Below, piece after piece: positions 831 through 63,049 of a stretch of 64,000 nucleotides of DNA. Position numbers and translations under genes: made by a program. Every line of letters begins with the position of its first letter. Position 1 is the first letter of the stretch. The stretch is taken from the NCBI GenBank assembly GCA_013791905.1, contig VMSX01000010.1, forward strand, positions 186,001 to 250,000, given 5' to 3'. The stretch comes from Rhodocyclaceae bacterium (GTDB lineage: Bacteria; Pseudomonadota; Gammaproteobacteria; Burkholderiales; Rhodocyclaceae). The notes beneath the pieces are model-generated. The model searched no databases. It saw nothing but the letters and a program-made list of their open reading frames with translations, and was not told where the DNA came from.

Positions 831-1256
831 TTACTTTACGCGTGTCAGGTGACCGCCGCGACGGGTCGGCGAATCCGGCTTGTCGGTTTCCGTTTCCGCT
901 TCCACATGCGCCGTCTCGCCAGCGCCGACTGCTTCGCCATCCACATGCTCTGGGATGGCCTCGAATGCCATTCCTTGTCCGTTCTCGCGCGCGTAGATGG
1001 CCAGCACGGCGGATACTGGCACGGCTACCGAGAAAGATGCACCGCTGAAGCGGGCCTGAAAAGTGATCTCGTCGTTGCCGATTTGCAGTTGGTGAGTGGC
1101 TTCGGCACCGACGTTGAGGACGATTTGCCCGTCCTTGACGAACTCGCGTGGCACGCGAGTTCGCTCATCGACCTGTACGGCAATGTGGGGAGAAAAACCC
1201 TCGTCCGTGCACCATTCATGGATTGCACGGATAAGGTATGGCTTGGTGGACACCAT
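831..1256 (-). CDS. sspB: ClpXP protease specificity factor SspB
   Basis: A 141-residue protein. SspB tethers ssrA-tagged polypeptides, and some other substrates, to ClpX for degradation by ClpXP in the cytoplasm. The conserved N-terminal core is present (STKPYLIRAIHEWC, later IVLNVGAEATHQL and FSVAVPVSAVLAIYARENG), followed by the usual disordered, acidic tail that carries the ClpX-docking end. ATG 1256 fits the family start; a TTG five codons upstream is possible. It lies 28 bp behind sspA, the normal sspAB operon order. The tail contains a copy of the dispersed 24-bp motif (909-932), read as AVGAGETA. Confidence 0.95.
   Translation of the reverse strand: MVSTKPYLIRAIHEWCTDEGFSPHIAVQVDERTRVPREFVKDGQIVLNVGAEATHQLQIGNDEITFQARFSGASFSVAVPVSAVLAIYARENGQGMAFEAIPEHVDGEAVGAGETAHVEAETETDKPDSPTRRGGHLTRVK
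909..932 (-). repeat. Dispersed 24-bp motif, copy 1
   Basis: Minus-strand copy of the core GTCGGCGCTGGCGAGACGG in the disordered tail of sspB. The core is an exact match; only the leading AAA differs (GCA). It is read in frame as AVGAGETA. Confidence 0.8.
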
Positions 1257-1284
1257 CAGGGAAACAGGCAATGCACCGCCGCAA

Positions 1285-1881
1285 TCAGCGGCGCATCACC
1301 TTTTCAGACGGCGTCAGCGCATCGATGAAGCCCTGCCGAGAGAAAATGCGTTCGGCGAACTTCATTACCCCCGCCGCCGATTTCGGCAGTTCGATGCCAT
1401 AGTGATCAAGGCGCCACAGCAGGGGCGCGATAGCCACGTCGAGCATTGAAAAGTCATCGCCGAGCAGGAATTTCTGCTTTGCGAACAGAGGAACCAGTTC
1501 GACCAGGCGATCGCGGATATGCGCCCGCGACTTGTCCGCCGACTTCAGGTTGCGCTCAAGCGTATCGATATGGCTGAACAACTCGTGTTCCATCGTATGC
1601 AGCAGCTGGCGCGCCTTTGCCCGCGTTTGCGGATCAGGCGGCATCAACTGCGGATGTGGAAACCGTTCATCAATATATTCATTGATGATATTCGACTCGT
1701 AAAGAACGAGGTCGCGATCCACCAGCACCGGGACCCGGTTATACGGGTTGATGACGGCGATGTCCTCAGGCTTGTTGAAGAGGTCAACGTCAATCACCTG
1801 AAAGTCCATCTGCTTTTCGTAGAGAACGATACGGCAGCGATGGCTGAACGGGCAGGTGGTGCCCGAGTACAGGTTCATCAT
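1285..1881 (-). CDS. sspA: Stringent starvation protein A (GST-fold RNA polymerase-associated factor)
   Basis: 198 residues from ATG 1881, with GGGGAACGAG ahead of the double ATG. SspA has a glutathione S-transferase fold but acts as an RNA polymerase-binding regulator in starvation and acid stress. Visible are the thioredoxin-like N-domain (MNLYSGTTCPFSHRCRIVL, NPYNRVPVLVDRDLVLYES) and the all-helical C-domain ending near LTPSEKVMRR. The NRVPVL cis-proline segment is intact. The reading frame is open for 25 codons upstream, but the family start is MMNLYSG. It is followed by sspB and preceded by the bc1 genes, a common betaproteobacterial arrangement. Confidence 0.95.
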   Translation of the reverse strand: MMNLYSGTTCPFSHRCRIVLYEKQMDFQVIDVDLFNKPEDIAVINPYNRVPVLVDRDLVLYESNIINEYIDERFPHPQLMPPDPQTRAKARQLLHTMEHELFSHIDTLERNLKSADKSRAHIRDRLVELVPLFAKQKFLLGDDFSMLDVAIAPLLWRLDHYGIELPKSAAGVMKFAERIFSRQGFIDALTPSEKVMRR

Positions 1882-1979
1882 GGCACTCGTTCCCCAAGAA
1901 TAGTCGGAATCACGCACCACGCGACGGACGGGTGGATTCATATCTCGATGCCCCATGTCAGTATGGTCACGCTATTGAG

Positions 1980-2690
1980 TTAATGGATATCTTTCCAGTA
2001 TTCACGCTTGAGCGCATACGAGAAGATAAACAGGACGAAAAGAAAAATGAGCACGACAACTCCAAGTTCCTTGCGGAAATTGGCCATCGGCTCGGCGATG
2101 TAAGTCAAAAAGCCTACCAGGTCAGCAACCATTGCATCAAACTCTGCCGGCTGCAGTACTCCTGGCTTGGCTAGCACGAGTTTATGATCAGGGCTGAGCT
2201 CCTGCTCACCCTGAAGTTCCCACAGGATGTGCGGCATGCCGACATTGGGGAACACCAGATTATTCCAGCCGGTCGGGCGCGAGTCGTCTCGATGGTAGGA
2301 ACGCAGATAGGTGTACAGCCAATCGGCCCCTGAACCGGATCCAGAAGTGCGGGCACGGGCAATCAGTGTCAGATCGGGAGGCGGAACACCAAACCACTCT
2401 TTCGCTTCGGCGCGCCGCATCGCGATCGTCATGGGCTCGCCAATCTTGTCAGCGGTAAATAACAGGTTGTCCTTGATTTGCCCTTCGGTCAAACCAAGAT
2501 CAGTGAGCCGGTTGTAGCGGTAGTAAGACGCCGAATGACAGTTCAGGCAATAATTGACGAAGACTTTCGCGCCGTTTTGCAGGGCAGCCAAATCGCGCGA
2601 ACGGTCAGGTGCCTTGTCCAGATGAACTTCCGTGCCGGCGGCAAAAGCGAGCAGCGGCACAAACAGCAGGGCGAGGAACAGTTTTTTCAT
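1980..2690 (-). CDS. petC: Ubiquinol-cytochrome c reductase, cytochrome c1 subunit
   Basis: A 236-residue cytochrome c1 that passes electrons from the Rieske protein to soluble cytochrome c at the periplasmic face of the bc1 complex. It has a signal peptide (MKKLFLALLFVPLLAFA), a CLNCH heme-c attachment motif at residues 48-52, the conserved region around MRRAEAKEWFGVPPPDL that carries the axial-ligand segment, and one C-terminal membrane anchor (ELGVVVLIFLFVLFIFSYAL). Its ATG overlaps the petB stop in ATGA, so translation is probably coupled. It is the last gene of petA-petB-petC. Confidence 0.97.
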   Translation of the reverse strand: MKKLFLALLFVPLLAFAAGTEVHLDKAPDRSRDLAALQNGAKVFVNYCLNCHSASYYRYNRLTDLGLTEGQIKDNLLFTADKIGEPMTIAMRRAEAKEWFGVPPPDLTLIARARTSGSGSGADWLYTYLRSYHRDDSRPTGWNNLVFPNVGMPHILWELQGEQELSPDHKLVLAKPGVLQPAEFDAMVADLVGFLTYIAEPMANFRKELGVVVLIFLFVLFIFSYALKREYWKDIH

Positions 2691-3988
2691 TTTCCCGTCA
2701 CCCTTTCCGGCTCGGCCTTGCATCTATCGAGCGAAGTATAAATTGGCATCAACAGGAAAAATGCGAAGTAGATGATGGAGCAAACCTGCGCAATCATCGT
2801 CAGACCCGGGGTTGCCGGCATAGTGCCCAGAACGCCCAGAATGATGAAGCAGGCGACGAAGATCGCCAGCGCGCCTTTGAACAAGGGGCCACGGTAACGG
2901 ATCGACTTCACGGGGCTGCGGTCGAGCCAAGGCAGGAAGAAGAAGATCATTACACCCAGACCCATGAAAATAACCCCCCACAACTTGGCGTCGATCCAGA
3001 AGAAGTTCACCGTATTGGCGCGCAGAATCGAGTAGTAAGGCGAGAAATACCACAGCGGCGCAATATGCGACGGCGTCACCAGTGGATCGGCTGGAAAGAA
3101 ATTGTTGTATTCGAGGAAATAACCGCCACCTTCCGGCATGAAGAAAATAACGATCGCGAAGACCATCAAAAAGACCACCGCACCAACGAGATCCTTCACC
3201 GAGTAGTAGGGATGAAACGGGATGCCGTCGAGGGGGATGCCGTCAGGGCCTTTTTTCTTCTTGATCTCGATACCATCCGGATTGTTCGAGCCAACTTCGT
3301 GCAGCGCCATGATGTGCGCGGCGACCAAACCGATCAGCGCCAGGGGGATCGCAACGACGTGCAAGGCGAAGAAGCGATTCAGCGTGGCATCGGAAACGAC
3401 ATAGTCACCACGAAGCAAGAGGGCGAAATCCGGGCCGATGACGGGGATGGCGGTGAACATGTTCACGATCACTTGCGCCCCCCAGTAGGACAACTGGCCC
3501 CACGGCAGCAGATAGCCGAGGAAGGCTTCTGCCATCAACAGGAGGAAAATTAGCACACCAAAAATCCAGATCAGCTCGCGCGGATTACGGTAGGAACCGT
3601 AGAGCATGCCGCGGAACATGTGCAGATAGACGACGATAAAGAAGGCCGAGGCACCCGTGGAATGCATGTAGCGGATCAACCAGCCCCACGGAACGTCGCG
3701 CATGATGTACTCGACGCTGGCAAAGGCCGCCGGGATACCTGAAGCATTGAGCGCCGCATCCGGCTTGTAGTGCATCGTCAGAAAGATGCCGGTGACGATC
3801 TGGAGTACCAGCACCAAGATCGCCAGAGAGCCGAAAAAGTACCAGAAGTTGAAATTTTTCGGTGCGTAGTACTTGGCCAGATGGTCGTTCCACAATGACA
3901 ACAAGGGGAAGCGGGCATCGACCCATTCCAGCAGACCACCGGCGGCTGAACCATCGGATTTGTATTTGTCAGTATTGGCGGCGCCCAT
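2687..3988 (-). CDS. petB: Ubiquinol-cytochrome c reductase, cytochrome b subunit
   Basis: A 433-residue polytopic protein that holds both b hemes and the Qo and Qi quinone sites. The four heme-ligand histidines are present as two pairs, H109/H123 (YMHSTG, YLHMFRG) and H210/H225 (FALHVVA, AAHIMALHE). About eight to nine membrane helices are evident. The Qo-loop motif that is PEWY in mitochondria reads PLWY here (near residue 311). A non-acidic residue at this point is known in several beta- and gammaproteobacteria. It starts 2 bp after petA ends and overlaps petC by 4 bp. Confidence 0.98.
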   Translation of the reverse strand: MGAANTDKYKSDGSAAGGLLEWVDARFPLLSLWNDHLAKYYAPKNFNFWYFFGSLAILVLVLQIVTGIFLTMHYKPDAALNASGIPAAFASVEYIMRDVPWGWLIRYMHSTGASAFFIVVYLHMFRGMLYGSYRNPRELIWIFGVLIFLLLMAEAFLGYLLPWGQLSYWGAQVIVNMFTAIPVIGPDFALLLRGDYVVSDATLNRFFALHVVAIPLALIGLVAAHIMALHEVGSNNPDGIEIKKKKGPDGIPLDGIPFHPYYSVKDLVGAVVFLMVFAIVIFFMPEGGGYFLEYNNFFPADPLVTPSHIAPLWYFSPYYSILRANTVNFFWIDAKLWGVIFMGLGVMIFFFLPWLDRSPVKSIRYRGPLFKGALAIFVACFIILGVLGTMPATPGLTMIAQVCSIIYFAFFLLMPIYTSLDRCKAEPERVTGK

Positions 3989-3990
3989 GC

Positions 3991-4587: not shown

Positions 4588-4609
4588 GAAGGGGGATTCC
4601 TAAATTATT

Positions 4610-4637
4610 TTGTGTACAGATGCTTGTGTACAGATGC
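4610..4637. repeat. Perfect 14-bp tandem duplication in the petA leader
   Basis: TTGTGTACAGATGC occurs twice back to back (4610-4623 and 4624-4637), between the probable petA promoter and start codon. Each copy contains TGTACA, which is palindromic. It could be an operator pair or an mRNA leader element; the function is inferred only. Confidence 0.85.
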
Positions 4638-4650
4638 GGAAAACCTGCAG

Positions 4651-7724: not shown

Positions 7725-7903
7725 GGCAATCGGCAAAGAAAATAACGGGTCTGCACCAAGCAGACAAGTGTGGATTCTAGCAGCGGAAGAATTTCGTCGC
7801 CCCGGAGATAATCGGCGTGACCAAAGGGAATCCCCGTGGGACTGGCGCGACGACGATCGACCAAAAAAGAAATGATGAATAATCTGTTGCCTGCCTGCCA
7901 AAC

Positions 7904-11819: not shown

Positions 11820-13145
11820 TCACGCATTGCGGCCAGGAGGTTGGACTGGATCCGGGCGCATCACACCCGCCACCGTCAGGAACGATCCGAAGACGAGAAT
11901 TCTATCATCGTCGCCCGCATTCTCTTGCGCGTAGGCAAGTGCTGCTGCGGGTGACGGGAATTGCCCCACCGGCACATTGCTGGAAGCTGCGGCACCAACT
12001 TTTGCAATGACCGCCGCCAGGTTGGCGGCAGTGGCGGCACGCGGCACCGGCAGGTCGCAGGGCAGCCAGTAGTCGACCCGCTGCCGGAGCGCCTCGATCA
12101 CGCCGGCAATGTCCTTGTCCGCCATCATGCCGAATACAGCCCAAGTGGTGCGTGCAAAACCCATCCCGCCCAGACTCGCCGCGAGGGCTGCGGCAGCCTG
12201 CGGGTTGTGGGCGACATCGAGGACCACTTGCGGCCGCCCCGGCAATACCTGGCAGCGGCCCGCGACCTCGACTTCCGACAGGCCGCGCCGGATATCCTGC
12301 GCCGTCACCGGCAACCGGTCATGCAAGGCATACAGTGCGGCAATGGCACAACTGGCGTTGTGCAACTGGCTATCACCCCGCAAGGCCGGGAAAGCCAGGC
12401 CGCCAAGTTTTCTTTCATGCCCCCCGCAACGCCCCCAGTATTGCCACTGGCCCTCCTGTCGAAGAAACCCGAAGTCGCGGCCGATCTGACAAAAGTCGGC
12501 GCCGGCCAGACGGCAGGTTTCGAGCAGGCTCTGCGGCGGTTCGGCATCGCCGCAGATCAGCGGCCGACCGGAACGGCAGATGCCGGCCTTCTCGCGACCG
12601 ATTGCCTCACGCGTCGGCCCAAGATAATCCATGTGGTCAAGCGCCACGGTAGCAACAATGGCGCAGTCGGCAGCGTAGATGTTGGTGGCGTCGAGCCGCC
12701 CCCCCAGGCCGACTTCCAGGATGATCGCGTCAAGCGGCGCGGCGGCAAACATTTCCCAGGCGGCCAGCGTGCCGAACTCGAAATAGGTGAGCGAGACCCC
12801 GCGTCGCGCGGCCTCGACCCGCGCAAACGCCGCACAGAAATCGGCATCAGCCGCCGGCACGCCATTTAGCCGTACCCGTTCGTTGTAACGCTGCAGGTGG
12901 GGCGAGGTGTATACACCGACGCGATAGCCGGCGGCAAGGAGAATGCATTCGAGCATGGCGCAGGTCGAGCCTTTGCCATTGGTGCCGCCGACGGTGATGA
13001 CCGGGCAGTGCTGGCGCTGCTGCAGGACATCGCTGACCTGCCGAACGCGTTCCAGCCCGAGTTCGATACCCGCCTGACCGCGCGGGTGCAAGTGCTCAAG
13101 GTGAACCAGCCACTCTGCCAGACTGCGCGCTACAGCTACCGCCAT
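11820..13145 (-). CDS. folC: Bifunctional folylpolyglutamate / dihydrofolate synthase
   Basis: A 441-residue Mur-ligase-like enzyme that adds glutamate to dihydropteroate and to folates. The ATP-binding loop GTNGKGS is at 54-60 and the SPHLQRYNERVRLNG segment follows. LEVGLGGRLDATN is the family signature. Start ATG 13145 overlaps the accD stop by one base (TGATG); the 127 open codons further upstream run antiparallel through accD and are not part of the protein. A plus-strand copy of the 24-bp motif at 12492-12515 falls in the CRLAGADF segment. Confidence 0.96.
   Translation of the reverse strand: MAVAVARSLAEWLVHLEHLHPRGQAGIELGLERVRQVSDVLQQRQHCPVITVGGTNGKGSTCAMLECILLAAGYRVGVYTSPHLQRYNERVRLNGVPAADADFCAAFARVEAARRGVSLTYFEFGTLAAWEMFAAAPLDAIILEVGLGGRLDATNIYAADCAIVATVALDHMDYLGPTREAIGREKAGICRSGRPLICGDAEPPQSLLETCRLAGADFCQIGRDFGFLRQEGQWQYWGRCGGHERKLGGLAFPALRGDSQLHNASCAIAALYALHDRLPVTAQDIRRGLSEVEVAGRCQVLPGRPQVVLDVAHNPQAAAALAASLGGMGFARTTWAVFGMMADKDIAGVIEALRQRVDYWLPCDLPVPRAATAANLAAVIAKVGAAASSNVPVGQFPSPAAALAYAQENAGDDDRILVFGSFLTVAGVMRPDPVQPPGRNA
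12492..12515 (+). repeat. Dispersed 24-bp motif, copy 2
   Basis: Plus-strand copy, antisense to folC, with the core read as GTCGGCGCCGGCCAGACGG (two differences from consensus). On the folC strand it encodes CRLAGADF. Confidence 0.65.
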
Positions 13146-15050: not shown

Positions 15051-16256
15051 TCAAAACTGAATCCCGGATTTTTCGGCTACGGTATGCATGTCCTTGTCAC
15101 CCCGGCCGGACAGATTGACGAGAAGGATTTTGTCGCGCGGCAGCGTCGGCGCCAGCCGCGTTGCGTAGGCCAGCGCGTGACTCGATTCAAGCGCCGGGAT
15201 GATCCCCTCGTCACGACATAAATCATGGAAGGCAGCCAGCGCCTCGTCGTCAGTCACGGTGACATATTCTGCCCGACCGGTGTCCTTCAACCAGGCATGT
15301 TCGGGACCAACGCCGGGATAGTCAAGCCCGGCGGAAATCGAATGGGTCTCGATGATCTGGCCATTGGCATCCTGCAGCAGATAGGTGCGGTTGCCATGCA
15401 GAACACCCGGACGACCCGCAGTCAGCGAGGCGGCATGCTTGCCGGTGGCCATGCCGTATCCAGCCGCCTCGACGCCAATCAGCTTGACTGCCGCATGCGG
15501 AATATAGTCGTAAAAGATGCCCATGGCGTTGGAACCGCCGCCGACGCAGGCAATTACTGCATCAGGATGCCGTCCCGCCAGCGCCGACATTTGGCCGAGG
15601 CATTCCCGGCCGATCACCGCCTGGAAATCACGCACCATCATCGGGTACGGATGTGGCCCTGCCACCGTACCGATAATGTAAAAAGTGTTGGCAACGTTGG
15701 TCACCCAATCGCGCATAGCCTCGTTGAGGGCATCCTTGAGGGTTTTCGAACCAGACTCGACAGGCACCACCTTGGCACCCAGCAATTTCATGCGGTAAAC
15801 GTTGGCGGCCTGGCGCTTGATGTCCTCGCTACCCATGTAAACCACGCATTCCATGCCATAACGCGCGGCAACTGTAGCGGAGGCGACGCCATGCTGCCCC
15901 GCTCCGGTCTCGGCGATCACGCGCGGCTTGCCCATGCGCCGCGCCAGCATGGCCTGGCCGATACAGTTATTTATCTTGTGGGCACCGGTATGGTTGAGGT
16001 CTTCGCGCTTTAGATAGATCTGCGCACCGCCCAGCCGCTCGGACCAGCGTCTGGCATGGTAGATCGGACTGGGGCGTCCGACGTAATGCGCCAGTTCATT
16101 CTCAAATTCAGCCCGGAAGGCCGGGTCGGCTTTGGCAGCCTGATAGGCGGAATTGAGTTCGGCCAGGGCCGGCATCAGCGTTTCCGCGACAAATATTCCG
16201 CCATATTTACCGAAATGACCATGAACGTCCGGCATTTCGTATTTATTATCTGACAT
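15051..16256 (-). CDS. trpB: Tryptophan synthase beta subunit
   Basis: A 401-residue PLP enzyme that joins indole and serine to make tryptophan. The PLP lysine is K94 in HTGAHKINN, followed by AETGAGQHG and the phosphate-binding GGGSNAMG. The length and the N-terminal [20 protein letters not shown] are those of the TrpB1 type that pairs with TrpA. It starts 5 bp after trpF, so the two are probably on one message. Confidence 0.98.
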
Positions 16257-23679: not shown

Positions 23680-24327
23680 CTAGGCCACCTTCGAGAAAAG
23701 CCAGGGTTGTTCGATTTGACGCTTTGCCTCGAAAGCGCGAATTTCATCGGCGTGGCGCAGGGTGAGGCCGATGTCGTCCCAGCCATTCAGCAGGCATTCC
23801 TTGCGGAAGGGATCGACGTCGAAACTAAGCACCGTGCCATCAGGTCGCGTGACGGTTTGTGCGGCCAAGTCGATTTTCAACCGATAGCCTGACGTCGCCG
23901 CGACTTGCGCGAACAGTTCATCCACCGCGGCGGTCGGCAGCCGGATCGGCAGCAAGCCGTTCTTGAAGCTGTTGTTGAAAAAAATATCGGCAAAACTGGT
24001 GCCGACCAGCGCACGAAAACCGTAATCCTCCAGTGCCCACGGCGCATGCTCGCGTGACGAGCCGCAGCCGAAGTTGTCGCGCGTCAGCAGAATCGATGCG
24101 CCCTGGTAGCGCGGCTGATTCAGGACAAAGTCGGCGTTGATGGGACGGCGGCTGCAGTCCTGACCCGGCTCGCCGCGGTCGAGATAGCGCCATTCATCGA
24201 AGGCGTTGGGGCCGAACCCGGCACGCTTGATCGACTTCAGGAATTGCTTGGGAATGATGGCATCGGTATCGACATTGGCGCGATCGAGCGGCGCCACCAA
24301 ACCATCGAAAGGGGTGAATGCACGCAT
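23680..24327 (-). CDS. leuD: 3-isopropylmalate dehydratase small subunit
   Basis: A 215-residue swivelling domain that pairs with LeuC to isomerise 2- to 3-isopropylmalate. It has [36 protein letters not shown] and [17 protein letters not shown], all hallmark LeuD motifs. The ATG follows the TAG of the small lipoprotein gene without a gap (TAGATG). Confidence 0.98.
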
Positions 24328-24484: not shown

Positions 24485-25906
24485 TTAAACAAGCTCACGC
24501 ACGTCGGTAAAGTGTCCGGCAATGGCGGCCGCGGCCGCCATTGCCGGACTGACGAGATGGGTGCGTCCGCCGGCGCCCTGGCGGCCCTCGAAATTACGGT
24601 TGGAAGTGGACGCGCAACGCTCGCCCGGCTCCAAGCGGTCCGCGTTCATGGCGAGACACATCGAACAGCCTGGCTCGCGCCACTCGAAACCGGCAGACAG
24701 GAAGATCTGGTCGAGGCCTTCCGCCTCGGCCTGGCGCTTGACCAGCCCGGAACCGGGCACCACGAGCACGCGTTTCACGCTGGCTGCCTTGCCGCGTCCC
24801 TTGGCAGCCGCGACAACGGCCGCCGCCGCACGCAAATCTTCGATGCGCGAGTTGGTGCAGGAGCCGATGAAAACCTGATCGACGCGAATCTCCTTGATCG
24901 GTGTGCGTGCCACCAGCCCCATGTATTCCAGCGCCCGGACAATGCCTTCGCGCTTGACCGGATCGGCGAAATCTTCCGGAGCGGGCACGCTGCCGCCAAC
25001 CGCCACGACCATCTCGGGCGAGGTGCCCCAGGTCACCTGCGGCTGGATCGTCGCCGCATCGAGTTCCACCACCGTATCGAAAGACGCATGTGGATCGGAC
25101 ACCAGCGTACGCCAATAGGTCACCGCCCGTGCCCACTCCTCACCCGTCGGCGCAAAGGCGCGTCCCTTGAGATAGTCAATCGTCGTGTCGTCGACCGCGA
25201 CAAAGCCGACCCGCGCGCCAGCCTCGATCGCCATGTTGCACACCGTCATGCGGCCTTCCAGCGACAGGGCGCGAATCGCGCTGCCGGCGAACTCCACCGC
25301 ATGGCCGGTGCCACCCGCCGTGCCGATCTTGCCGATGATGGCCAGCACGATATCTTTCGCCGTCACGCCTGCGCCGACTTTGCCCTCGACCTTGATCTGC
25401 ATCGCCTTCATCTTCTTTTGCAGCAGGCACTGGGTGGCGAGGACATGCTCGACCTCGGAAGTGCCGATGCCATGCGCGAGGCAGGCGAAGGCGCCGTGCG
25501 TCGAAGTATGCGAATCACCACAGACCACGGTCATGCCGGGAAGGATGGCGCCGTTCTCCGGGCCAATGACATGGATGATGCCCTGGCGGGCATCCTTGAA
25601 CGGAAAGAAGGCCAGCGCCCCGACCTCATGGATATTGGCGTCGAGCGTCTCGACCTGCTGGCGCGAGACCGGATCCTCGATACCGCGCTCCCAGTGGTCG
25701 GTCGGCGTATTGTGGTCGGCCGTTGCCACAATGGACGAGACGCGCCACGGCTTGCGCCCGGCGAGTTTCAATCCCTCGAAGGCCTGCGGGCTGGTGACTT
25801 CATGCACCAGGTGGCGGTCGATATACAGAAGTGCCGTGCCGTCCGCTTCGGTGCGGACGACATGGTTCTCCCAAAGCTTGTCGTAGAGCGTTTTTGGCAT
25901 GGCCAT
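24485..25906 (-). CDS. leuC: 3-isopropylmalate dehydratase large subunit
   Basis: A 473-residue aconitase-family protein with the [4Fe-4S] ligands C350 (IGSCTNSR), C414 and C417 (CSMCLAMN). [26 protein letters not shown] is the substrate/cluster region. Start ATG 25906 has AGGA seven to four bases upstream; an ATG two codons later is possible. A minus-strand copy of the 24-bp motif (25358-25381) encodes KVGAGVTA at 176-183, exactly where the family has a conserved G-x-TAKD segment of fixed length. Confidence 0.98.
25358..25381 (-). repeat. Dispersed 24-bp motif, copy 3
   Basis: Minus-strand copy within leuC, with the core read as GTCGGCGCAGGCGTGACGG. It encodes KVGAGVTA in frame. The segment is a normal part of LeuC, so this copy arose by substitution or is coincidental, not by insertion. 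Confidence 0.55.
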
Positions 25907-26704: not shown

Positions 26705-27895
26705 TCAACGTAAAATAACCGACTCTGTTGACAGGCCACGCCAGATCAGCACCCAGCCACACGCGGAAAACAGGGCGGCCAGCGTGAAAGTGATGCCCGG
26801 ACCCAGACTACCCCAGGCCGCGCCGCTGATCAATCCGCCGACCATGCCGCCGGCACCGAACGAGATACTGCCGTAGATACCCTGAATGCGTGCCTGCTGC
26901 TGCGAGACAAACCAGCGCGTCAGCACTGCCATTGCAGCTGCATGGTAGGCGCCAAAGGTCGCGCCGTGCAAGACCTGGGCAATCAGCAACAATACTGGCG
27001 AATCGGCACCCCAGCCAATCAGGAGGAAACGCAACACGCCCAAGGCAAAGCTCGCCAGCAGGATATGGCGCAACGACACCCAGCGCACCAGGCGCGGCAT
27101 GGCCATGAATACGCCAATCTCGGCCAGCACGCCCAGCGACCAGAACAGCCCGATCGCCAGCTTGTCGTAGCCGTGGTTATCCAGATGGACCGAGTAAAAG
27201 ACGTAGAGCGGACCATGGGCCACCGACATGAAAAAGCACGCCGCCAGCAATGCCACGACTGCTGGACGCTTGAGCAGGGCACCCAACGGTGGCGCCGTCC
27301 CGTCAGCGCCGACTTTTGGATCGGGCAGGGTCATGGCGGTCGCCAGCACGCTCGCCAGAATGGCCATGATCGCCCAGAGCAGCGCGGCAATCGGCAGGTA
27401 ATCGAGCAGCGCGCCGATGGCCATGACACTGACGATGAAGCCGACCGAACCCCAGAGGCGGACACGTCCGTAGCGGTCGGGATGCTCCGCCAGGTGATCG
27501 AGGGTCATGGCCTCGACCAGCGGCAGGGCGGCACTCCAGAAAAACCAGACCAGTGCCATCGCCGCCAGCATGGGAACGTAATCCTGGGTGAAAAAGAAGC
27601 CGGCGAAACCCAGCGCGGAAAACAGGGCGGCCAGGCGGACAATCGCGACACGGTGGCCCAGGTGGTCGGCCAACCAGCCCCACAGGTTGGGCGCCACCAT
27701 GCGCATCACCTGCGGTACCGACATCATCACCCCCATCTCCCAGGCGGACAGGCCGACATCATTGAGATACAGGGTGAAAAACGGTGCGAAGGCACCGACG
27801 AAAGCGAAGTAGAAAAAGTACCAGGCGGCTAAGCGGCCGAGTGGACTGAAACCCAAAGGGCTTAAACCCGCGGGGCGTTGAGGGGAAACCGACAT
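26705..27895 (-). CDS. MFS transporter of the MFS_1-like / 3-phenylpropionate permease type
   Basis: A 396-residue permease with twelve predicted membrane helices in two halves (WYFFYFAFVGAFAPFFTLYLND at the start; a large cytoplasmic loop in the middle). The overall pattern is that of the HcaT/LacY-like MFS_1-like family; the substrate is unknown. Start ATG 27895 is chosen because upstream codons are Pro/Arg-rich and unlike the family. The central loop contains a minus-strand copy of the 24-bp motif, read as KVGADGTA, right after TLPDP. Confidence 0.85.
   Translation of the reverse strand: MSVSPQRPAGLSPLGFSPLGRLAAWYFFYFAFVGAFAPFFTLYLNDVGLSAWEMGVMMSVPQVMRMVAPNLWGWLADHLGHRVAIVRLAALFSALGFAGFFFTQDYVPMLAAMALVWFFWSAALPLVEAMTLDHLAEHPDRYGRVRLWGSVGFIVSVMAIGALLDYLPIAALLWAIMAILASVLATAMTLPDPKVGADGTAPPLGALLKRPAVVALLAACFFMSVAHGPLYVFYSVHLDNHGYDKLAIGLFWSLGVLAEIGVFMAMPRLVRWVSLRHILLASFALGVLRFLLIGWGADSPVLLLIAQVLHGATFGAYHAAAMAVLTRWFVSQQQARIQGIYGSISFGAGGMVGGLISGAAWGSLGPGITFTLAALFSACGWVLIWRGLSTESVILR
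27293..27316 (-). repeat. Dispersed 24-bp motif, copy 4
   Basis: Minus-strand copy in the MFS gene, with core GTCGGCGCTGACGGGACGG. It encodes KVGADGTA in the central cytoplasmic loop. Confidence 0.75.
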
Positions 27896-32369: not shown

Positions 32370-33013
32370 GCTGCGCCTCCAGAGTCCCGCTTGGTTTCCA
32401 GAATTTCACGATAGGGCGCACCTGCGCCAGCATTGGCCGGCAGCAACTTGATCGCTTCGTCATAAGCGGTGCGCGCCTCGGCTACCTTGCCCTGCGCTGC
32501 CAGGATATCGCCCTGCACTTCAAGGTAGCGCGGCTTGAAAGTCGGCGCTGGCGGAACGGCGAGTCGCTTCAGCGCTTCGTCATAGGACTTGTCCTCGGCC
32601 AGCACAATGGCCTGCCGCAGGCGCGCCAGATCGCGCAGGCCGGGATCCTTGGCATTCTCGGCAGCCCAGCCAAACTGGGCCTGAGCCGATTTGAAATCGC
32701 CTGAGTCAACCAACACCTTGCCCGACAGCATGGCCGCCATGCCGGCGTAGGCGGTTCTTGAGTACTTGTCGATCAGTTCGCCGGCCAGCAAGCGTACGCG
32801 CTTGGCATCCTGTTGCACCAGCGAGCGCTGCAACTCGCCATACAGTTGCGAGGCCTGTGTGGACTGCGTGCGGTCCCACCACTGCCAGCCCTGCCAGCCG
32901 ACCACACCAACGGAGAGTGCCACGATCACCGCTGAAATCAGCGCGCCGTGCATCTTCCACCAGGTCTTGAGCTCTTCGATTTGTTCCTGTTCTTCGAGAT
33001 CGTAGGTTGCCAT
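32366..33013 (-). CDS. yfgM: YfgM-like membrane-anchored tetratricopeptide protein
   Basis: A 215-residue type II membrane protein with a short cytoplasmic N-terminus (YDLEEQEQIEELKTWWKMHG), a helix at about 22-40 and a periplasmic TPR domain (GDFKSAQAQFGWAAENAKD, LRDLARLRQAIVLAEDKSYDEAL). In E. coli YfgM is an ancillary SecYEG/PpiD chaperone and modulates RcsB stability. It lies between hisS and bamB as usual. A plus-strand copy of the 24-bp motif (32538-32561) makes the LAVPPAPTF segment. Confidence 0.9.
   Translation of the reverse strand: MATYDLEEQEQIEELKTWWKMHGALISAVIVALSVGVVGWQGWQWWDRTQSTQASQLYGELQRSLVQQDAKRVRLLAGELIDKYSRTAYAGMAAMLSGKVLVDSGDFKSAQAQFGWAAENAKDPGLRDLARLRQAIVLAEDKSYDEALKRLAVPPAPTFKPRYLEVQGDILAAQGKVAEARTAYDEAIKLLPANAGAGAPYREILETKRDSGGAA
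32538..32561 (+). repeat. Dispersed 24-bp motif, copy 5
   Basis: Plus-strand copy antisense to the yfgM-like gene, with core GTCGGCGCTGGCGGAACGG. The gene strand reads AVPPAPTF, nearly the same peptide as from copy 8. Confidence 0.75.
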
Positions 33014-46950: not shown

Positions 46951-48954
46951 TCAGCTCCCGGCAAGAAAACAGCGCACCACATGGGTTGCGGACAGCATCG
47001 CCGGGGCGGGATAGGCTGCGCGGCAACGCGACTCGGCCCAGGGGCAACGCGGATGAAAATGGCACCCCGCCGGTGGATTGGCTGGCGAGGGCGGATCACC
47101 AGCCACGCGAACATACTCCCGGTTGCCGTCCCGGCCCGCTTCGATCTGCGGCGCTGCTGCCAGCAGCGCCTGCGTATAGGGGTGGCGGGAGTTGCGCAAC
47201 ACCTCATCGACCGTGCCGTACTCGACGATGCGGCCGAGGTACATCACCGCCACCTCCTGCGCCAGATAGTCGACCACCGTGATGTTGTGGGTGATGAACA
47301 GATAGGCCAAACCCAACTGCGCCTGTAGGTCGGTCAGCAGATTGAGAATTTGCGCCTGCACCGATACATCGAGCGCACTGGTCGGCTCGTCGCAGATCAG
47401 CAGTAGCGGCCGCACTGCCAGCGCACGGGCGATGGCGATGCGCTGGCGCTGGCCACCGGAAAACTCGTGCGGATAGCGCCCCACCATGTCGCCCGAGAGG
47501 CCAACCTGTTCCAGGAGTTCGGCAACGCGCAAGGCCGGATCACCGGCCACCGCCAGCGCCCGCAATCCCTCGGCAATAATTTCGCCAACCCGCAGGCGCG
47601 GATTGAGTGAGCCGAACGGATCCTGGAAGACCATCTGCATTGCTGCCGGGGCCAACCCCTGCAACAGCTTGCCCTGCAATTTCACTGTGCCGCCGGTCGG
47701 CGGCTGCAGCCCGAGGATGGCCTTGCCGACCGTCGTCTTGCCGCAGCCCGACTCACCCACCAATGCCACTGTGCGACCGGCCCGCAGGGCAATGGTTACG
47801 CCATCGACCGCGCGCACGTGGCCGACAACACGTTGCAATACGCCGCGCCGGATCGGGAAATGCACCTTGAGATCACTTGCTTCCAGCAACGCCGTCTCAC
47901 CAGCGCCGACTTTTGCGCGCGCCGCAAAATCGGCACTTTCCGCCGGCAGGGTGTGCGCTGTTTCGAGATGGCAGCGCACCTGCTGACCCGCCGTGTACTC
48001 GCGCCATGGCGGTGGCGTGGAGCGACACACCGGCAAGGCCTCGCCGCAACGTTCGACAAAGCGGCACCCGGCATGCTGCGTCCCAAGTGGCGGCACACTG
48101 CCGGGAATTGTCAAAAGTCGGCGCTGGCGGGACGGAGTGCCCCGCAGCGGGTATGCAATGCCCCGCATGGGGTACGCCGCCTTATCCGCGGACGCCGCAT
48201 CGGGCAGCGCAGCAAACAGCCGGCGCGTGTAAGGATGCCCCGGCGCAGCATAGAAGGCGGCGCGCGGTGCTACTTCAACGAGTTGGCCGGCATACATCAC
48301 GCCAATGCGATCAGCCATCTGCGCCACCACGCCGAGATCGTGGCTGATCAGCAGCATCGCCATGCGCCGTTCGCGGCGCAGGCCATCAAGCAAATCGAGC
48401 ACCTGGGCCTGAATGGTGACGTCGAGCGCGGTAGTCGGCTCGTCGGCGATCAACAGCTCGGGCTCGCCGGCCAGCGCCATCGCGGTCATCGCCCGCTGCT
48501 TCATGCCGCCCGACATCTGGAAGGGATATTCCGTGGCGCGGCGCGCCGGATCGGGAATGCCGACGGCGGCGAGCAGTTCGACGATTTTCTCGCCCTGCGC
48601 TTTGCCGGTATGAAACTTCAGTGCCTCGGCAATCTGCGCGCCGATGGTCATCACCGGGTTGAGGCTGGCCCCCGGCTCCTGAAAGATCATGCCGATTTTC
48701 CCGCCGCGCACGCTGCGCATCTGCGCTTCGGTCAATGCACAGAGCTCCTGTCCGGCAAACTGCACGCTGCCCGCGGCAATGCGCGCCGCCTCGGGCAGCA
48801 GGCGCATCAGCGCCAGCGCCGTCAGCGACTTGCCGCAACCGGATTCGCCGAGCAGCGCAAAAGTTTCGCCGGCGCCGATCTCGAACGACACGCCGTCAAC
48901 CGGCTCTGCCGCGCCAATCGCCACCGACAAATCGCGGACAGATAACAAACTCAT
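46951..48954 (-). CDS. yejF: Peptide ABC transporter ATP-binding protein, two fused ATPases (YejF-like)
   Basis: 667 residues with two complete ABC cassettes, each with GESGCGKS/T Walker A, an LSGGQ-like signature ([22 protein letters not shown]) and Walker B ([16 protein letters not shown]). Both carry the oligopeptide-type C-terminal zinc/cysteine extension ([29 protein letters not shown]). ATG 48954 is used; the open frame upstream runs through a dispersed repeat. Two 24-bp motif copies lie between the cassettes, one with hairpin units that add about 20 residues ([18 protein letters not shown]). Likely imports peptides. Confidence 0.93.
47890..47913 (-). repeat. Dispersed 24-bp motif, copy 6
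   Basis: Minus-strand copy in the linker between the two ATPases of the YejF-like gene, with core GTCGGCGCTGGTGAGACGG. It encodes KVGAGETA in frame. Confidence 0.8.
48114..48178 (+). repeat. Dispersed 24-bp motif, copy 7, with two hairpin units
   Basis: Plus-strand copy (48114-48137), core GTCGGCGCTGGCGGGACGG, followed by two 21-bp tandem units (48137-48157 and 48158-48178). Each unit has the form TGCCCCGCA, two bases, then GGGTA or GGGGTA, and can fold back on itself. It lies antisense inside the yejF-like gene and adds an in-frame stretch absent from the usual family pattern. Confidence 0.8.
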
Positions 48955-53583: not shown

Positions 53584-54131
53584 TCCAGTCGAAAGCGTAC
53601 CGGCAGTAAAACCTGGCGCTGCGCGGCGGGCAGGCCGTTGATGCCACGCACCGCCACGAGCGCTGCTGCATCAAGAATGGGGTGGCCCGAACTGGTTGCC
53701 ACCGCTGCTGCGGCGACTCCGCCGTTCGGCGTCAAGGTCAGCAACACGATGACATCGCCTTCGATGCCCCGCTCGATCGCCTCGCGCGGATAAAAATCGA
53801 GCTTTGCGATAGCCGCCAGTGCAGTGTTGAGCGCACGCCCCTGCAATTCGCGCGGCTTTGGTGCAATAGTCGGCGCTGGCGGTACGGCGCTTGGTGCGGG
53901 TTTTACCTCCGGTTCGGCTGGCGCGGGTTTGATTGGCGTTTCCTGGGTGGCCAACAAGGGAGCCAGCAGAACGGCTTCAAGTGCCGGACTGGGCTGCGGC
54001 GCGGGAGGTTGCGCGAAAAAGCCGAACGGCCAGAGCACGACGGCATGCAGCAGCACGCTCGCCAGTGTGGAGAAACCGAACCGCAACGCTGGCAGAGTGG
54101 CCCGGCGGGCTTCTTGAGAAATCGCCGTCAT
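53580..54131 (-). CDS. TonB-like energy-transducer protein
   Basis: 183 residues from ATG 54131: cytoplasmic start, one anchor helix (STLASVLLHAVVLWPFGFFA), a proline-rich spacer (about 40-95) and a C-terminal TonB-type domain (YPREAIERGIEGDVIVLLTL, then AAALVAVRGINGLPA). No ExbB/ExbD genes are next to it, so it may borrow an ExbBD pair or have a structural role. A plus-strand copy of the 24-bp motif (53866-53889) writes AVPPAPTI in the spacer. Confidence 0.85.
   Translation of the reverse strand: MTAISQEARRATLPALRFGFSTLASVLLHAVVLWPFGFFAQPPAPQPSPALEAVLLAPLLATQETPIKPAPAEPEVKPAPSAVPPAPTIAPKPRELQGRALNTALAAIAKLDFYPREAIERGIEGDVIVLLTLTPNGGVAAAAVATSSGHPILDAAALVAVRGINGLPAAQRQVLLPVRFRLD
53866..53889 (+). 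repeat. Dispersed 24-bp motif, copy 8
   Basis: Plus-strand copy antisense to the TonB-like gene, with core GTCGGCGCTGGCGGTACGG. The gene strand reads AVPPAPTI in the proline-rich spacer. Confidence 0.75.
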
Positions 54132-54184: not shown

Positions 54185-55279
54185 ATGAAAATGAATCGTC
54201 TGATTGTTTTGCTTTTCCTGACTGTTTGCCAGCTTCTGCCTGTCACTGCGCAAGCCGAGTTGCCCGATCCGAGCCGTTTTTCGGTGGCCATGGAACTCGG
54301 CAACGTCAGCCAGGCACGCGCCTGGCTGGATGAAGGCCTCGACCCGAATTTCGAGGGCGCACTGATCGGCACCGGCCTGATGATCGGCGCCTGGGAGGGG
54401 AACATTCCCCTCATGGAGCTGTTTGTCGAGCGCGGCGCCGACCTCAACCGCATCAACCGCCAGGGCGAAACCGCGCTGATGCTGGCGGCCTGGAAAGGCA
54501 AGCGCGCGGCGATGCAGTGGCTGCTTGAGCGCGGCGCCGCACCGAATCGGAGCAACCGTGCCGAGCGCGAGTGGACCGCCTTGCACTACGCCGTCTTTGC
54601 CGGCCACGCCGAACTCACCGAGCGCCTGCTAACTGCCGGCGCCGACGTCAACGCCCGCTCCACCAATGGCTCCACGGTGGTCATGATGGCGGCCCGCGAG
54701 GGCCATGAAGCCATCGCCCAGCGCCTCATGGCCGCCGGCGCCAACCCGGCCATGAAAAATGACTTCGAGGACGACGCCGTTGCCTGGGCGATGCGCCAGG
54801 GTAATTACCGGATCGCCCAGACCTTTACCAGCGCCGAAAACTTTGCCGAACTGGCGCGCGCAGCTGTCGCCAACCCCCTGCCCAAGCCCCAGCGCTCCAC
54901 TCCTGTGTCTGACCGGGTCGAAGAACACCTGCGCATGGCGCGCCTGGCTGAAGCGAAGGGGCAACGCGGTGCAGCGCTCGCTGCCTATCGCAAGGCGCTG
55001 ACCGAACTTAAAGCGCAACCAACGCCACCGAAAGTCGGCGCTGACAAGACGGCGAGCGGCGCGAAACCCACCGCCAAGGCCCCCAACGCGCTGGTGATCC
55101 GAGCCAAGCGTGGCCAGCCCGAGCAGCAAAGCGCCGCCCTCAGCTATACCGGCGGCGAAGAAGCCGGCATCAACCAGTTGCTCGAACAGGCGCGTGCCGC
55201 CGAAGCCGCCGGACGACGCACAGAAGCATTACAACTGTTCCGCCGCGCTTCAGAGCGCATCAAGGCAAACCAGCAATAA
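54185..55279 (+). CDS. Exported ankyrin-repeat protein
   Basis: A 364-residue protein with a signal peptide (MKMNRLIVLLFLTVCQLLPVTAQA). Four to five ankyrin repeats cover about residues 30-205 (GETALMLAAWKGKRAAMQWLLERGA; TALHYAVFAGHAELTERLLTAGAD). The C-terminal third is helical and Lys/Ala-rich, with two TPR-like stretches (RMARLAEAKGQRGAALAAY; EQARAAEAAGRRTEALQLF). The linker between them holds a sense copy of the 24-bp motif, read as KVGADKTA. The partner is unknown. Confidence 0.88.
   Translation: MKMNRLIVLLFLTVCQLLPVTAQAELPDPSRFSVAMELGNVSQARAWLDEGLDPNFEGALIGTGLMIGAWEGNIPLMELFVERGADLNRINRQGETALMLAAWKGKRAAMQWLLERGAAPNRSNRAEREWTALHYAVFAGHAELTERLLTAGADVNARSTNGSTVVMMAAREGHEAIAQRLMAAGANPAMKNDFEDDAVAWAMRQGNYRIAQTFTSAENFAELARAAVANPLPKPQRSTPVSDRVEEHLRMARLAEAKGQRGAALAAYRKALTELKAQPTPPKVGADKTASGAKPTAKAPNALVIRAKRGQPEQQSAALSYTGGEEAGINQLLEQARAAEAAGRRTEALQLFRRASERIKANQQ
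55031..55054 (+). repeat. Dispersed 24-bp motif, copy 9
   Basis: Plus-strand copy in the sense orientation of the ankyrin gene, with core GTCGGCGCTGACAAGACGG. It encodes KVGADKTA in the linker. Confidence 0.7.
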
Positions 55280-55471
55280 TTTTCCGCGCCCACTTGGAGG
55301 AAGAAGGATGCATCTCCAAAGCAGCTTTGCCGCCGGGCCGCCCCAAGGCAAAGTGGCACGCGGCGCCAGCCGCAATCCGCTCCCATGCATGAACGGGAGT
55401 TCCCCGTTATCAACGAGCAAAGCGAGTCAACAGTCACCTCCCCCGCGAGGGGGAGGCTGGGAGGGGGAGGG
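55280..55471 (+). repeat. Dispersed intergenic repeat, copy c (between the ankyrin gene and rmuC)
   Basis: A 192-bp spacer between convergent genes. It holds CCGCCGGGCCGCCCCAAGG (55330-55348), identical to the minus strand of 49047-49065, and ends in CACCTCCCCC, GCGAGGGGGAGG, CTGGGAGGGGGAGGG just before the rmuC stop, matching the purine-rich end of copies a and b. The middle part is not shared. The paired C/G runs can form a stem and may act as a terminator. Confidence 0.7.
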
Positions 55472-56790: not shown

Positions 56791-56836
56791 AAAGTCGGCG
56801 CGGCTGGGATGAAATGCCCCATATAGGGTACGGCGT
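56791..56836 (+). repeat. Dispersed 24-bp motif, copy 10 (degenerate), with one hairpin unit
   Basis: The only copy lying between genes, in the 63-bp gap between rmuC and the nitroreductase gene. AAAGTCGGCGC is followed by GGCTGGGATGAA and a unit ATGCCCCATATAGGGTACGGC-like at 56814-56834 that matches the hairpin unit of copy 7 at 17 of 21 positions. It is placed in the leader of rmuC on the opposite strand. Confidence 0.65.
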
Positions 56837-61153: not shown

Positions 61154-61163
61154 TCCAGCAGCC

Positions 61164-61709
61164 TCAAAGCTTCAAGAAGTGCTCGCGGTAATACTTGAGT
61201 TCCTCGATCGACTCGTAGATGTCGGCGAGCGCCTCATGCTTGCCACCCTTCTTGACGCCCTTGGCGATTTCCGGTGTCCAGCGCTTGCACAGTTCCTTCA
61301 GCGTTGACACGTCGAGGTTGCGGTAATGGAAATAGGTTTCCAGCTTCGGCATATAGCGCGCCATGAATCGGCGGTCCTGGCAGATCGAATTGCCGCACAT
61401 CGGCGACTTGCCCGTCGGCACATGGCGCTTGAGGAAATCGAGCGCCTGCGCCTCGATCTCGGCTTCGGCCAGTGCGGACGCTTTAACCTTTTCGATCAGC
61501 CCGGACTTGCCGTGCGTCTTCTTGTTCCAGGCATCCATCGCTTCGAGTACTTCATCGGACTGATGCACCGCCCATGCGACACTTTCGGCGACCACCTCAA
61601 GCTGTGAATTGGTGATCACCATCGCCAGTTCGATGATGCGGTCGCGGTCAGGGTCGAGCCCGGTCATTTCCATGTCGAGCCAGACAAGGGCGTTTTGGTC
61701 TTGTGCCAT
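61164..61709 (-). CDS. orn: Oligoribonuclease
   Basis: A 181-residue DEDDh exonuclease that degrades di- to pentaribonucleotides and completes c-di-GMP breakdown by removing pGpG. The motifs are [25 protein letters not shown] and [14 protein letters not shown] 61709 follows AGGAGAATT. It lies 10 bp before the exonuclease fusion gene, and is divergent from the Ste24 gene. A functional link to the GGDEF-EAL protein is plausible. Confidence 0.97.
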
Positions 61710-61774
61710 AATTCTCCTGCTTTCACGCGGTTTTACAGCTTGCATTCTGGCACATTTCCCCAATCTCACTTCTC

Positions 61775-63049
61775 GTGGCTGCACTCTTCTCCCTTGTCTT
61801 TCTGACCCTGCTGGCATTGACGACCGGCATGCGCGTGTGGCTGGCCTTGCGTCAGCTGCGGCATGTTGCTGCGCATCGCGCCACGGTGCCCGCCGAATTT
61901 GCCGACCGCATCGACCTCGCCGACCATCAGAAAGCGGCCGACTACTCGCGCGCCAAGATTCGCCTCGGCATCATCGAACTGGCAGTCGACGCCGTGCTGT
62001 TGCTGCTATTCTCCTTCGGCGGCCTGCTAACTGCCTTCGACCAGTTCTGGCGCGGCATGTTTGCCGACATGGGTTACGCCCATGGTCTTGCCCTGTTCGC
62101 CAGCGTCGGCATAGCCGGCTTTTGCATCAGTCTGCCATTTTCGCTGTATCGCACCTTTTCGCTCGAAGCCCGCTTCGGCTTCAACAAGATGACACCGGGC
62201 CTCTACGTCGCCGATCTTCTCAAGCAGCTGCTGCTGACCGTGCTGATCGGCGCGCCCCTGCTGCTCGCCGTGCTGTGGCTGATGGGCGCGATGGGCGAAC
62301 GCTGGTGGCTCTACGTCTGGGCCGCCTGGCTGGGCTTCAACCTGCTGGTGCTGCTGCTCTACCCGACCTACATCGCGCCACTGTTCAACAAGTTCACTCC
62401 GCTGGCCGATGGTGAGATGAAAACCCGCATCGAAGCGCTGCTGGCGCGCTGCGGCTTCGCCAGTTCTGGCTTGTTCGTGATGGACGGCTCGAAGCGTTCG
62501 GCCCACGGCAACGCCTATTTCACCGGCTTTGGCCGCGCCAAGCGCATCGTTTTCTTCGACACCCTGCTCGACAAACTCGTACCGGGCGAGGTCGAGGCCG
62601 TGCTCGCGCACGAGTTGGGGCATTACAAACATCGCCACGTCTGGAAGCGCATCGCCGTGATGGCCGCGCTGTCGCTCGCCCTGCTCTGGCTGCTGGGCCA
62701 GATCATCGACCAAACCTGGTTTTACGACGGTCTGAAAGTCGGCGTTGGCGAGACGGCGCAAAACGCTGCAATGAGTACGGCAATGGCGCTGATTCTCTTC
62801 TCGCTGGTGTTGCCGGTTTTCACCTTCCCCTTCGCCCCGCTCATGTCATGGCTGTCGCGACGCCACGAATTCGAGGCCGACGCGTATGCAGCAAAGCAGG
62901 CCAGCAGCAACGAGCTGATCGCCGCGCTGGTCAAGCTTTACCGCGACAATGCGGCAACGCTGACACCTGACCCGCTGTTTTCGCTGTTCTACGACTCGCA
63001 CCCGCCCGCCAGTCAGCGCATCGCGCATCTGCGTTCAGTAACTTCGTGA
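61775..63049 (+). CDS. M48-family Ste24-like membrane endopeptidase
   Basis: A 424-residue membrane metalloprotease like CAAX prenyl protease 1. It starts at GTG 61775 ([18 protein letters not shown]). Seven or so helices; HELGH zinc motif ([15 protein letters not shown]) and the third ligand Glu in [11 protein letters not shown]. Bacterial members are thought to process misfolded membrane proteins. The lumenal loop before [11 protein letters not shown] contains a sense copy of the 24-bp motif, KVGVGETA. It overlaps rsgA as GTGA. Confidence 0.93.
62735..62758 (+). repeat. Dispersed 24-bp motif, copy 11
   Basis: Plus-strand sense copy in the Ste24-like gene, with core GTCGGCGTTGGCGAGACGG (one difference from consensus). 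It encodes KVGVGETA in the loop between two helices. Confidence 0.75.

Follow-up and report, generated by a model that had tools for sequence, protein, structure and literature searches.

A dispersed 24-bp motif as a candidate DNA uptake sequence of some Rhodocyclaceae

A 24-bp motif, (A)AAAGTCGGCGCTGGCnnnACGGCG, is scattered over both strands of the genome of a Rhodocyclaceae bacterium, and I propose, with a probability of roughly two in three, that it is a DNA uptake (self-recognition) sequence of some members of this family. The motif is conserved at 21 positions over 24 bp, and its edges are sharp, with conservation ending at positions -4 and +20 and flanks devoid of similarity. Across the 3.64-Mb genome its 19-base core occurs 554 times at ≤3 mismatches (283 forward, 271 reverse), compared with 8 times for the reversed pattern. 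A preliminary description of one 64,000-nucleotide stretch of this genome (hereafter the window) had held that a genomic count of several hundred would support a chromosome-wide signal, had called for a check of strand balance, and had argued that coding does not explain such conservation; the count passes that test, the totals of the two strands are nearly equal, and coding does not account for the excess. In 20 synonymous-codon shuffles that preserved every called protein, the R-core was matched on average 2.1 times in the window (maximum 4) against 12 observed, and 20.4 times in 864 kb of the genome (maximum 28) against 154 observed. The 24-bp motif is thus over-represented genome-wide on both strands, by the reversed-pattern and the synonymous-shuffle controls alike. 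The window itself holds 11 core matches at ≤3 mismatches, against 0.08 expected (100 dinucleotide shuffles, largest 1): six on the plus strand (12495, 32541, 48117, 53869, 55034 and 62738) and five on the minus strand (911, 15570, 25360, 27295 and 47892). An Rfam scan of the window at gathering scores returned tRNA only.

Ten of the eleven positions previously read by eye coincide exactly with the first base of a copy of the 24-base motif. With genes placed by a home-made gene caller, the minus-strand copies lie at 909..932 (GCAGTCGGCGCTGGCGAGACGGCG, 2 mismatches to AAAGTCGGCGCTGGCnnnACGGCG), at 25358..25381 inside an aconitase-family gene, at 27293..27316 inside an MFS transporter gene, and at 47890..47913 in an ABC-transporter ATPase ORF (46951-49119, minus), where the orthologue in genome G014 is perfect. 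On the plus strand, copies lie at 12492..12515 inside a Mur-ligase-family gene (11820-13526, minus), at 32538..32561 inside a TPR_21 protein gene (a perfect motif), at 53866..53889 (its orthologue in G014 is AAAGTCGGCGCTGGTGGAACGGCG), at 55031..55054 in an ankyrin-repeat protein gene, and at 62735..62758 in an M48 peptidase gene, in the loop KVGVGETA. The site at 48114..48179 (plus) is a long form, form C, in which the motif is followed by two inserted modules and then the end ACGCCG. The eleventh site, 56791..56835 (plus, AAAGTCGGCGCGGCTGGGATGAAATGCCCCATATAGGGTACGGCG), is a degenerate long form B with 6 mismatches to the core, and a degenerate long form D is found at 7808..7855 (plus, ATAATCGGCGTGACCAAAGGGAATCCCCGTGGGACTGGCGCGACGACG). 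The list read by eye had overlooked a minus-strand copy at 15568..15591, in a PLP-dependent enzyme gene, and a weaker plus-strand copy with 3 mismatches at 24127..24150; its tally of seven plus and four minus refers to its own sites. Likewise, the statement that all copies share AGTCGGCG holds for those sites but not for 15568, which carries TGTCGGCG, and the placement in ten genes and one leader holds only approximately, as 53866 lies outside called genes and 47890 and 48114 share one ABC-transporter ORF.

Aligned orthologous sites diverge mostly by substitution rather than insertion, the long forms being an exception inside existing sites. Among 104 comparisons of sites inside BLAST alignments, in which a shared site enters once from each side, the motif was retained in 64, 11 were degenerate at the same length and 29 had gaps at the site; none was a clean empty site, the sole empty-like case being a local tandem duplication whose other copy is intact. 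The loop of trpC illustrates this at constant length, reading RIALGKPA without the motif in G010 and KIGAGQTA, KLGAGEAA and KVGAGGTA in G009, G002 and G017, respectively, and the M48 loop of a Sulfurisoma sp. (L142) reads KVGAGGTA at a length equal to that of many motif-less relatives. Within the window, length is unchanged in the G018 and G001 orthologues of 15568 (5 and 8 mismatches, respectively) and of 27293 (5 and 4), the motif at 12492 is present with 2 mismatches in both genomes, and the site at 55031 is perfect in G014, has 4 mismatches in G001 and is shifted with small gaps in G018. At gap-free sites (24 and 15, picked because one genome had a match there) identity is 90-94% in the motif and 84% in the flanks.

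Called genes contain 103 of 139 sites, and the remaining 36 lie outside. The genic copies are unevenly distributed over frames (49, 3 and 14 on the same strand as the gene; 17, 1 and 19 on the opposite strand; chi-square p = 3e-17) and over orientations (66 same, 37 opposite; p = 0.006), while in smaller samples the orientation is reversed in G018 (11 same, 17 opposite) and stands at 10 to 7 in G001. In two 400-kb stretches, spacing is more even than random in one (CV 0.70, p = 0.003) and has a CV of 0.93 (p = 0.37) in the other, and close pairs are scarce in both (4 vs 9.1 and 4 vs 9.3). Motif density increases nearly, though not strictly, monotonically with local GC, from 0.38 per 5 kb to 1.38. 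Motif deserts are only partly mobile DNA, with one relaxase among ten proteins scanned from three of them; the desert holding the relaxase also contains dnaK and dnaJ.

In the genus of the source organism, 18 of 19 genomes carry 234-721 copies each, and the motif is nearly absent from the congener G010. At least 200 copies were found in 28 of 249 Rhodocyclaceae genomes sampled, belonging to 6 of 68 genera (five besides its own), and 291 genomes from other families of the order have ≤6 copies each (24-mer, ≤3 mismatches). A possible transfer of motif-bearing DNA to other families was looked into at loci of three such genomes (G339, G269 and G403), which had no close Rhodocyclaceae DNA among the sequences compared. 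Some contigs of a viral collection also bear the motif (84 stretches), and 80 loci from that collection, all picked for a match, hold 148 copies in 734 kb. Lineages differ in dialect, as judged from consensuses of 15-35 copies each: G001 and G018 have ...ACGGCAc with a relaxed fourth base, G086 has GatACGGCG, and G026 has TCGGtGC. Most of the G002 matches listed have GGGGCGG. A GCTTCG block variant seen at three G001 sites was rejected as a further dialect, with 3 matches in 200 kb at ≤1 mismatch. Among open-licence PMC papers, no report of a "DNA uptake sequence" in Rhodocyclaceae was found, and of the papers listed for the letters of the motif none seemed relevant as judged by title and opening of the abstract.

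Known uptake cores are 9-12 nt long and, to my knowledge, uptake words have so far been described from only two other bacterial families. The neisserial DUS, as portrayed in PMC3630211, resembles the Rhodocyclaceae motif in having many copies, also intragenic, and species or genus dialects in one betaproteobacterial family; it differs in length (10-12 bp vs 24 bp) and, by the same source, in copy number (1543-3770, vs 234-721 here in each genome of the genus that bears the motif). Terminator pairs, frequent in Neisseria and Pasteurellaceae according to PMC1852404, were not seen in 864 kb, where the only opposite-strand pair ≤110 bp apart is a self-overlapping match. The DUS word GCCGTCTGAA occurs once in the same 864 kb, as does its reversed control, in keeping with the slight weight that had been given to a neisserial likeness, and the Pasteurellaceae USS 9-mer has 7 copies vs 13 for its reversed control; with neither enriched, neisserial or Haemophilus words were rejected as a basis. 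The literature describes evolution by point mutation (PMC1939737), reading-frame orientation bias (PMC2346458) and an over-representation that is gradual over mismatch load (PMC1939737) for known uptake sequences. The motif shares the first two features with the USS (PMC1939737, PMC2346458), from which it differs in its longer conserved core, its family and its steep mismatch profile. In G000 there is an excess at 0-4 mismatches and none at ≥5, with background masking small excesses at ≥6; the gradual over-representation expected of an uptake sequence is therefore not seen in that genome, and with so steep a profile copies could conceivably be born by templated copying. Of the other properties by which an uptake sequence might be recognised, a frame and orientation bias inside genes (in the main sample), in-place substitution and competence machinery are all present, and a 9-12 nt core is not. 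The length of the motif, with 21 fixed positions in 24, exceeds that of known cores and counts against an uptake role, as do the steep profile, the lack of terminator pairs, the 29 gapped comparisons, the opposite orientation bias in G018 and the copies in viral contigs.

Were the motif an uptake sequence, a putative minor pilin on the competence type IV pilus would serve as the surface receptor and bind motif DNA preferentially, the pilus would draw the DNA in, and a single strand would enter the cell through ComEC and replace the resident allele by homologous recombination. Because better copies would be taken up more often, copies would be kept and multiplied by molecular drive, persisting where proteins tolerate the encoded peptide, and the dialect of each lineage would arise by drift. 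I infer the uptake role, the receptor and the drive from abundance, strand balance, dialects, frame bias and substitution, which together make uptake the best supported of the options offered in the preliminary description. The machinery itself does not discriminate: all 30 of the family genomes tried have ComEC and all 26 tried have pilins, and both also occur in motif-less genomes, G010 included. The source genome has 14 type IV pilin matches, and a PilE-like pilin matches 16 PDB pilin sequences, none of them named ComP. When pilins from G000, G010, G018, G086, G129 and G023 were compared among the matches listed, a lone pilin common to G000, G018 and G129 was considered as a discriminating receptor and dropped, as 61 of 67 genomes have it whether or not they carry the motif.

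The long forms retain both ends of the short form, with modules inserted between them, and since they split the motif they are hard to square with a linear recognition site, which should not tolerate splitting. They bring to mind a non-autonomous, in-frame mini mobile element of about 24 bp with longer relatives, inserted at hundreds of places and then decaying, and such an element would also account for form D, abundant in G000 (about 80 copies) and G014 (91) and numbering 0-2 in twelve congeners, for the replacement of short by long forms and vice versa at the same orthologous site between G000 and G014, and for the lack of excess at 5 mismatches. Both motif ends are present in 17 of 20 sampled form D copies, and it is chiefly certain species of the genus that have module-bearing long forms. 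However, an element of this kind is an unlikely origin of the short motif, given 104 comparisons without a clean 24-bp empty site, the equal lengths with and without the motif at trpC, M48 and several window sites, and the absence of flanking conservation. A transposase check covering the Y1_Tnp family found a single such gene in the genome, with one 2-mismatch motif about 1.3 kb off within a 3.3-kb locus and no flanking copies, and a REP/RAYT origin was rejected on these grounds. Nor do the five typed forms fold convincingly, with z-scores of -2.2 to +0.9 against shuffles; a structured single strand was likewise rejected, form E (-2.2) being the one exception. REP/RAYT elements, MITEs and in-frame palindromic elements are dispersed, as the motif is, and its long forms resemble them in carrying modules within fixed ends; unlike them, the short form lacks a clear inverted repeat (by eye), clean empty sites and a flanking transposase. 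The suggestion of a mini-element, made in the preliminary description, is thus not supported for the short motif but may fit the long forms. It is conceivable, though on balance rather doubtful, that the modules of forms B to E are selfish and invaded the uptake words of a third family, spreading via transformation and recombination between copies; the word, with its own receptor, would then be the longest known to me.

A site bound by a protein of chromosome organisation, segregation or recombination, with no role in uptake, could explain the fairly even density on both strands and the sharp, recognition-like 24-bp logo, and the dialects could track a co-evolving DNA-binding protein. Yet the near-equal forward and reverse totals over the whole genome do not point to a polar signal, and presence in some genera of the family but not in others, with almost none in G010, would be odd for an essential function; chromosome signals of such length and number are not known, and I consider this role distinctly improbable. 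Hardly credible at all is a repeat selected at the protein level, in which a loop peptide such as KVGAGGTA is useful and the likeness of the DNA a by-product. KVGAGGTA-like peptides are indeed encoded in one frame by 49 of 103 genic copies, but the peptides of the remaining 54 are unrelated and come from the five other combinations of frame and strand (of which two are rare, with 3 and 1 copies), 36 of 139 copies lie outside called genes, and shuffles that preserve the peptide leave only 20 of 154 matches.

Rhodocyclaceae are environmental bacteria of water and sludge. If the uptake reading is true, they would make up a third bacterial family with uptake words and render the origin of uptake specificity testable, with a new receptor to look for, several dialects that could be exchanged, a congener almost devoid of the motif (G010), and a word long enough to leave clear traces of turnover. 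The motif would likely act as a barrier or a channel for gene exchange in water and sludge communities, and would provide a practical tag for transforming Rhodocyclaceae.

The motif is a strong and genuine signal found in part of a single family, the Rhodocyclaceae. The preliminary description had judged it unexplained by coding and likened it to DNA uptake sequences, another chromosome-wide recognition signal or a mobile mini-element; the genome count and the codon-preserving control that it asked for bear out a genome-wide excess beyond coding. In the window there are 11 matches to the 19-base core, GTCGGCGCTGGCGAGACGG, at up to three mismatches against 0.08 expected, and the whole genome (3.64 Mb, 30 contigs) holds 554, of which 283 are on the forward strand and 271 on the reverse; the same pattern read backwards gives 8. 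Synonymous-codon shuffling, which keeps every protein and was done within genes called by a simple purpose-written caller (also behind the frame, window-site and GC-density results), left a mean of 20.4 matches (maximum 28 in 20 shuffles) against 154 real ones in an 864-kb sample (the window plus C4:1-400000 and C6:1-400000, from two contigs of this genome), and 2.1 (maximum 4) against 12 in the window. Ten of the eleven sites read by eye were exact first bases of the 24-base motif; the other, at 56791, is a degenerate copy of a longer form that differs from the core at six positions, and copies at 15568 and 24127 had been overlooked.

Alignment of 154 copies, selected by the 19-base core, gives a sharp-edged motif, (R)AAAGTCGGCGCTGGCnnnACGGCG, which is loose at three central positions and flanked by unconserved sequence. 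When the 24-mer is searched at up to three mismatches, 103 of 139 copies lie inside called genes and 36 outside, the latter an excess (p 4e-5) against an assumed 13% of non-coding DNA. Genic copies favour particular frames (same strand 49, 3 and 14; opposite strand 17, 1 and 19; chi-square p 3e-17), and the four common frames encode mainly small or flexible residues, as in KVGAGGTA, KSALAGR and RRPASADF. There is a same-strand excess (p 0.006); the orientation is reversed in a sample of the congener G018 (11 same, 17 opposite), and a sample of the congener G001 gave 10 and 7. Of two 400-kb stretches, one had copies spaced significantly more evenly than chance would give (p 0.003), while the other did not reach significance (p 0.37); in both, neighbours less than 1 kb apart were under half as frequent as expected (4 vs 9). 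Between the lowest and the highest local GC class, density goes up from 0.38 to 1.38 copies per 5 kb. A 30-kb stretch, C6:368925-398866, lacks the short motif and contains a relaxase gene, dnaK, dnaJ and a pyruvate phosphate dikinase family gene.

Across the genus, 18 of 19 genomes carry 234-721 copies each. The remaining one, G010, has a single copy, yet carries ComEC and 13 pilin hits; either the signal was lost, or it was never present, or the genome is misplaced in the genus. In a family sample of 249 genomes drawn evenly from 68 genera, 28 genomes in six genera have at least 200 copies, four (G253, G040, G062 and G073) have 20-40 and the rest at most 16, while the maximum among 291 genomes of the order outside the family is 6 (24-mer, up to three mismatches). 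Among 80 named loci (3-21 kb per locus), six (L141-L145 and L147) contain a copy at up to three mismatches, including a Sulfurisoma sp. MAG (L142) with five in 21 kb; the other 74, including Azonexus, Dechloromonas, Zoogloea, Aromatoleum, Nitrosomonas, Gallionella and Limnobacter, have none. Loci from three genomes in other families of the order (L320 in G339, L321 in G269, L322 in G403) hold a few near-perfect copies, some within a few kb of one another, possibly transferred DNA; none had a close relative among the sequences compared.

The motif also has dialects. In G001 and G018 its ending is GGCAc and the base after AAA is relaxed (28 and 35 copies); the tendency is towards GatACGGCG in G086 (20 copies) and towards TCGGtGC in G026 (15 copies), and most copies in G002, among the matches listed, read GGGGCGG. 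In a viral collection of 2.9 million contigs an exact 22-mer occurs in 84 stretches, and 80 loci, all selected for a match, hold 148 copies in 734 kb; some of these contigs may be host DNA. One, L247, contains at 629-2237 a tandem array of 4.7 copies of a 316-bp unit, with the motif four times at 316-bp intervals and once just past the array. Part of its unit, TAAC...GTTAGGC, resembles by eye an integron attC site, so the motif may be carried here on integron cassettes.

Turnover was traced at 104 site comparisons within BLAST alignments, shared sites being counted from both sides, between genomes aligning at 87% (G001/G018 and G000/G014, G000 being the source genome and G014 the genome nearest to it) or 75% identity (G000/G018 and G000/G001). 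The motif was kept gap-free in 64, and 11 had the same length with at least five mismatches; net gaps were 0-11 bp in 20 and 12-19 bp in four, and four were at least 18 bp longer. One site looked empty but reflects a tandem duplication of 25 bp, with the other copy still in place. Where G001 and G018 share a gap-free site, the set having been picked by a match in one of the two, identity is 90-94% over the motif positions and 84% in the flanks. In TrpC, 14 of 19 loci were readable at the anchor (L341, L344, L348, L352 and L358 were not), and the loop before IAEIKKASPSKG, RIALGKPA in motif-less G010, has the same length as KIGAGQTA in G009, KLGAGEAA in G002 and KVGAGGTA in G017; the other ten, G000 included, have longer loops that contain the motif or one of its forms. 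The Sulfurisoma version of a loop in the window's M48 gene, KVGAGGTA, equals in length the motif-less loops of several other genera.

Some copies retain both ends of the motif with inserts between them. Form B has 21 bases ahead of the last CGGCG, form C two such inserts, form D about 27 bases after AAAGTCGGCG, and form E is a variant 12 bases longer; predicted folding is unremarkable except for form E. Form D is frequent in G000 (80 copies), G014 (91) and G008 (38), less so in G013 (13), G003 (12), G015 (7) and G016 (6), and occurs 0-2 times in the other twelve genomes. Because short and long forms interchange at the same orthologous place between G000 and G014, and TrpC carries form D in G000 but a short or otherwise extended form in the congeners read there, at least some modules were inserted into existing copies or lost from them. 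An extra module, approximately TCAGCCGgcacGCCGCGTAAAcTGGGGACGGCG, with the same ACGGCG end, follows several copies (C6:112754, C6:317190 and C4:376970 of G000, and L347). Separately, a repeat of roughly 150 bp between genes (cagctttgccgccgggccgccccaaggc ... cacctcccccgcgagggggaggctgggagggg; window ~55299-55472) is, among the matches listed, numerous in G000, G014, G011 and G015 and present once in G008, and a copy at C4:313064 begins about 20 bases past a motif copy. A 200-kb part of G001 (L121-L130, C1:880001-1080000) contains some 15 occurrences, far over expectation, of a word around CTCTCACCCCGGATAGCTACAAT that may form a tandem array.

What could maintain such a word? Searches of open-licence PMC papers turned up no earlier description of it. 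I infer that it works like an uptake sequence, and do not file it with the neisserial DUS or the Pasteurellaceae USS because its word differs and it departs from them in two described traits that were tested, core length, at about twice that of known uptake cores, and mismatch profile. Known uptake sequences reportedly show an excess that fades gradually with mismatch load, whereas G000 has 52, 56, 19, 12 and 14 copies at 0, 1, 2, 3 and 4 mismatches, no gradual excess, and mere background at five (14 seen vs 16 expected). Some copying process may thus give rise to new copies, or there may be a threshold for recognition. Terminator-capable inverted pairs are also practically absent, with one self-overlapping pair in 864 kb. 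Competence machinery is present but not telling: ComEC (30 of 30 family genomes tried) and type IV pilins (26 of 26) are found in motif-less genomes too and therefore do not discriminate, and no cognate receptor was found among the pilins compared. PMC12616744 lists no families other than Neisseriaceae and Pasteurellaceae as discriminating in this way. The excess, edges, frames, turnover and dialects are direct observations, to which an uptake reading would add three inferred steps, namely uptake itself, a receptor and drive. Molecular drive through biased DNA uptake is described for known uptake sequences in PMC1939737, and it predicts the pattern seen here: many sites, turnover mostly by substitution, genic copies, both strands and dialects. 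In this family, biased uptake would let molecular drive keep the word at hundreds of places.
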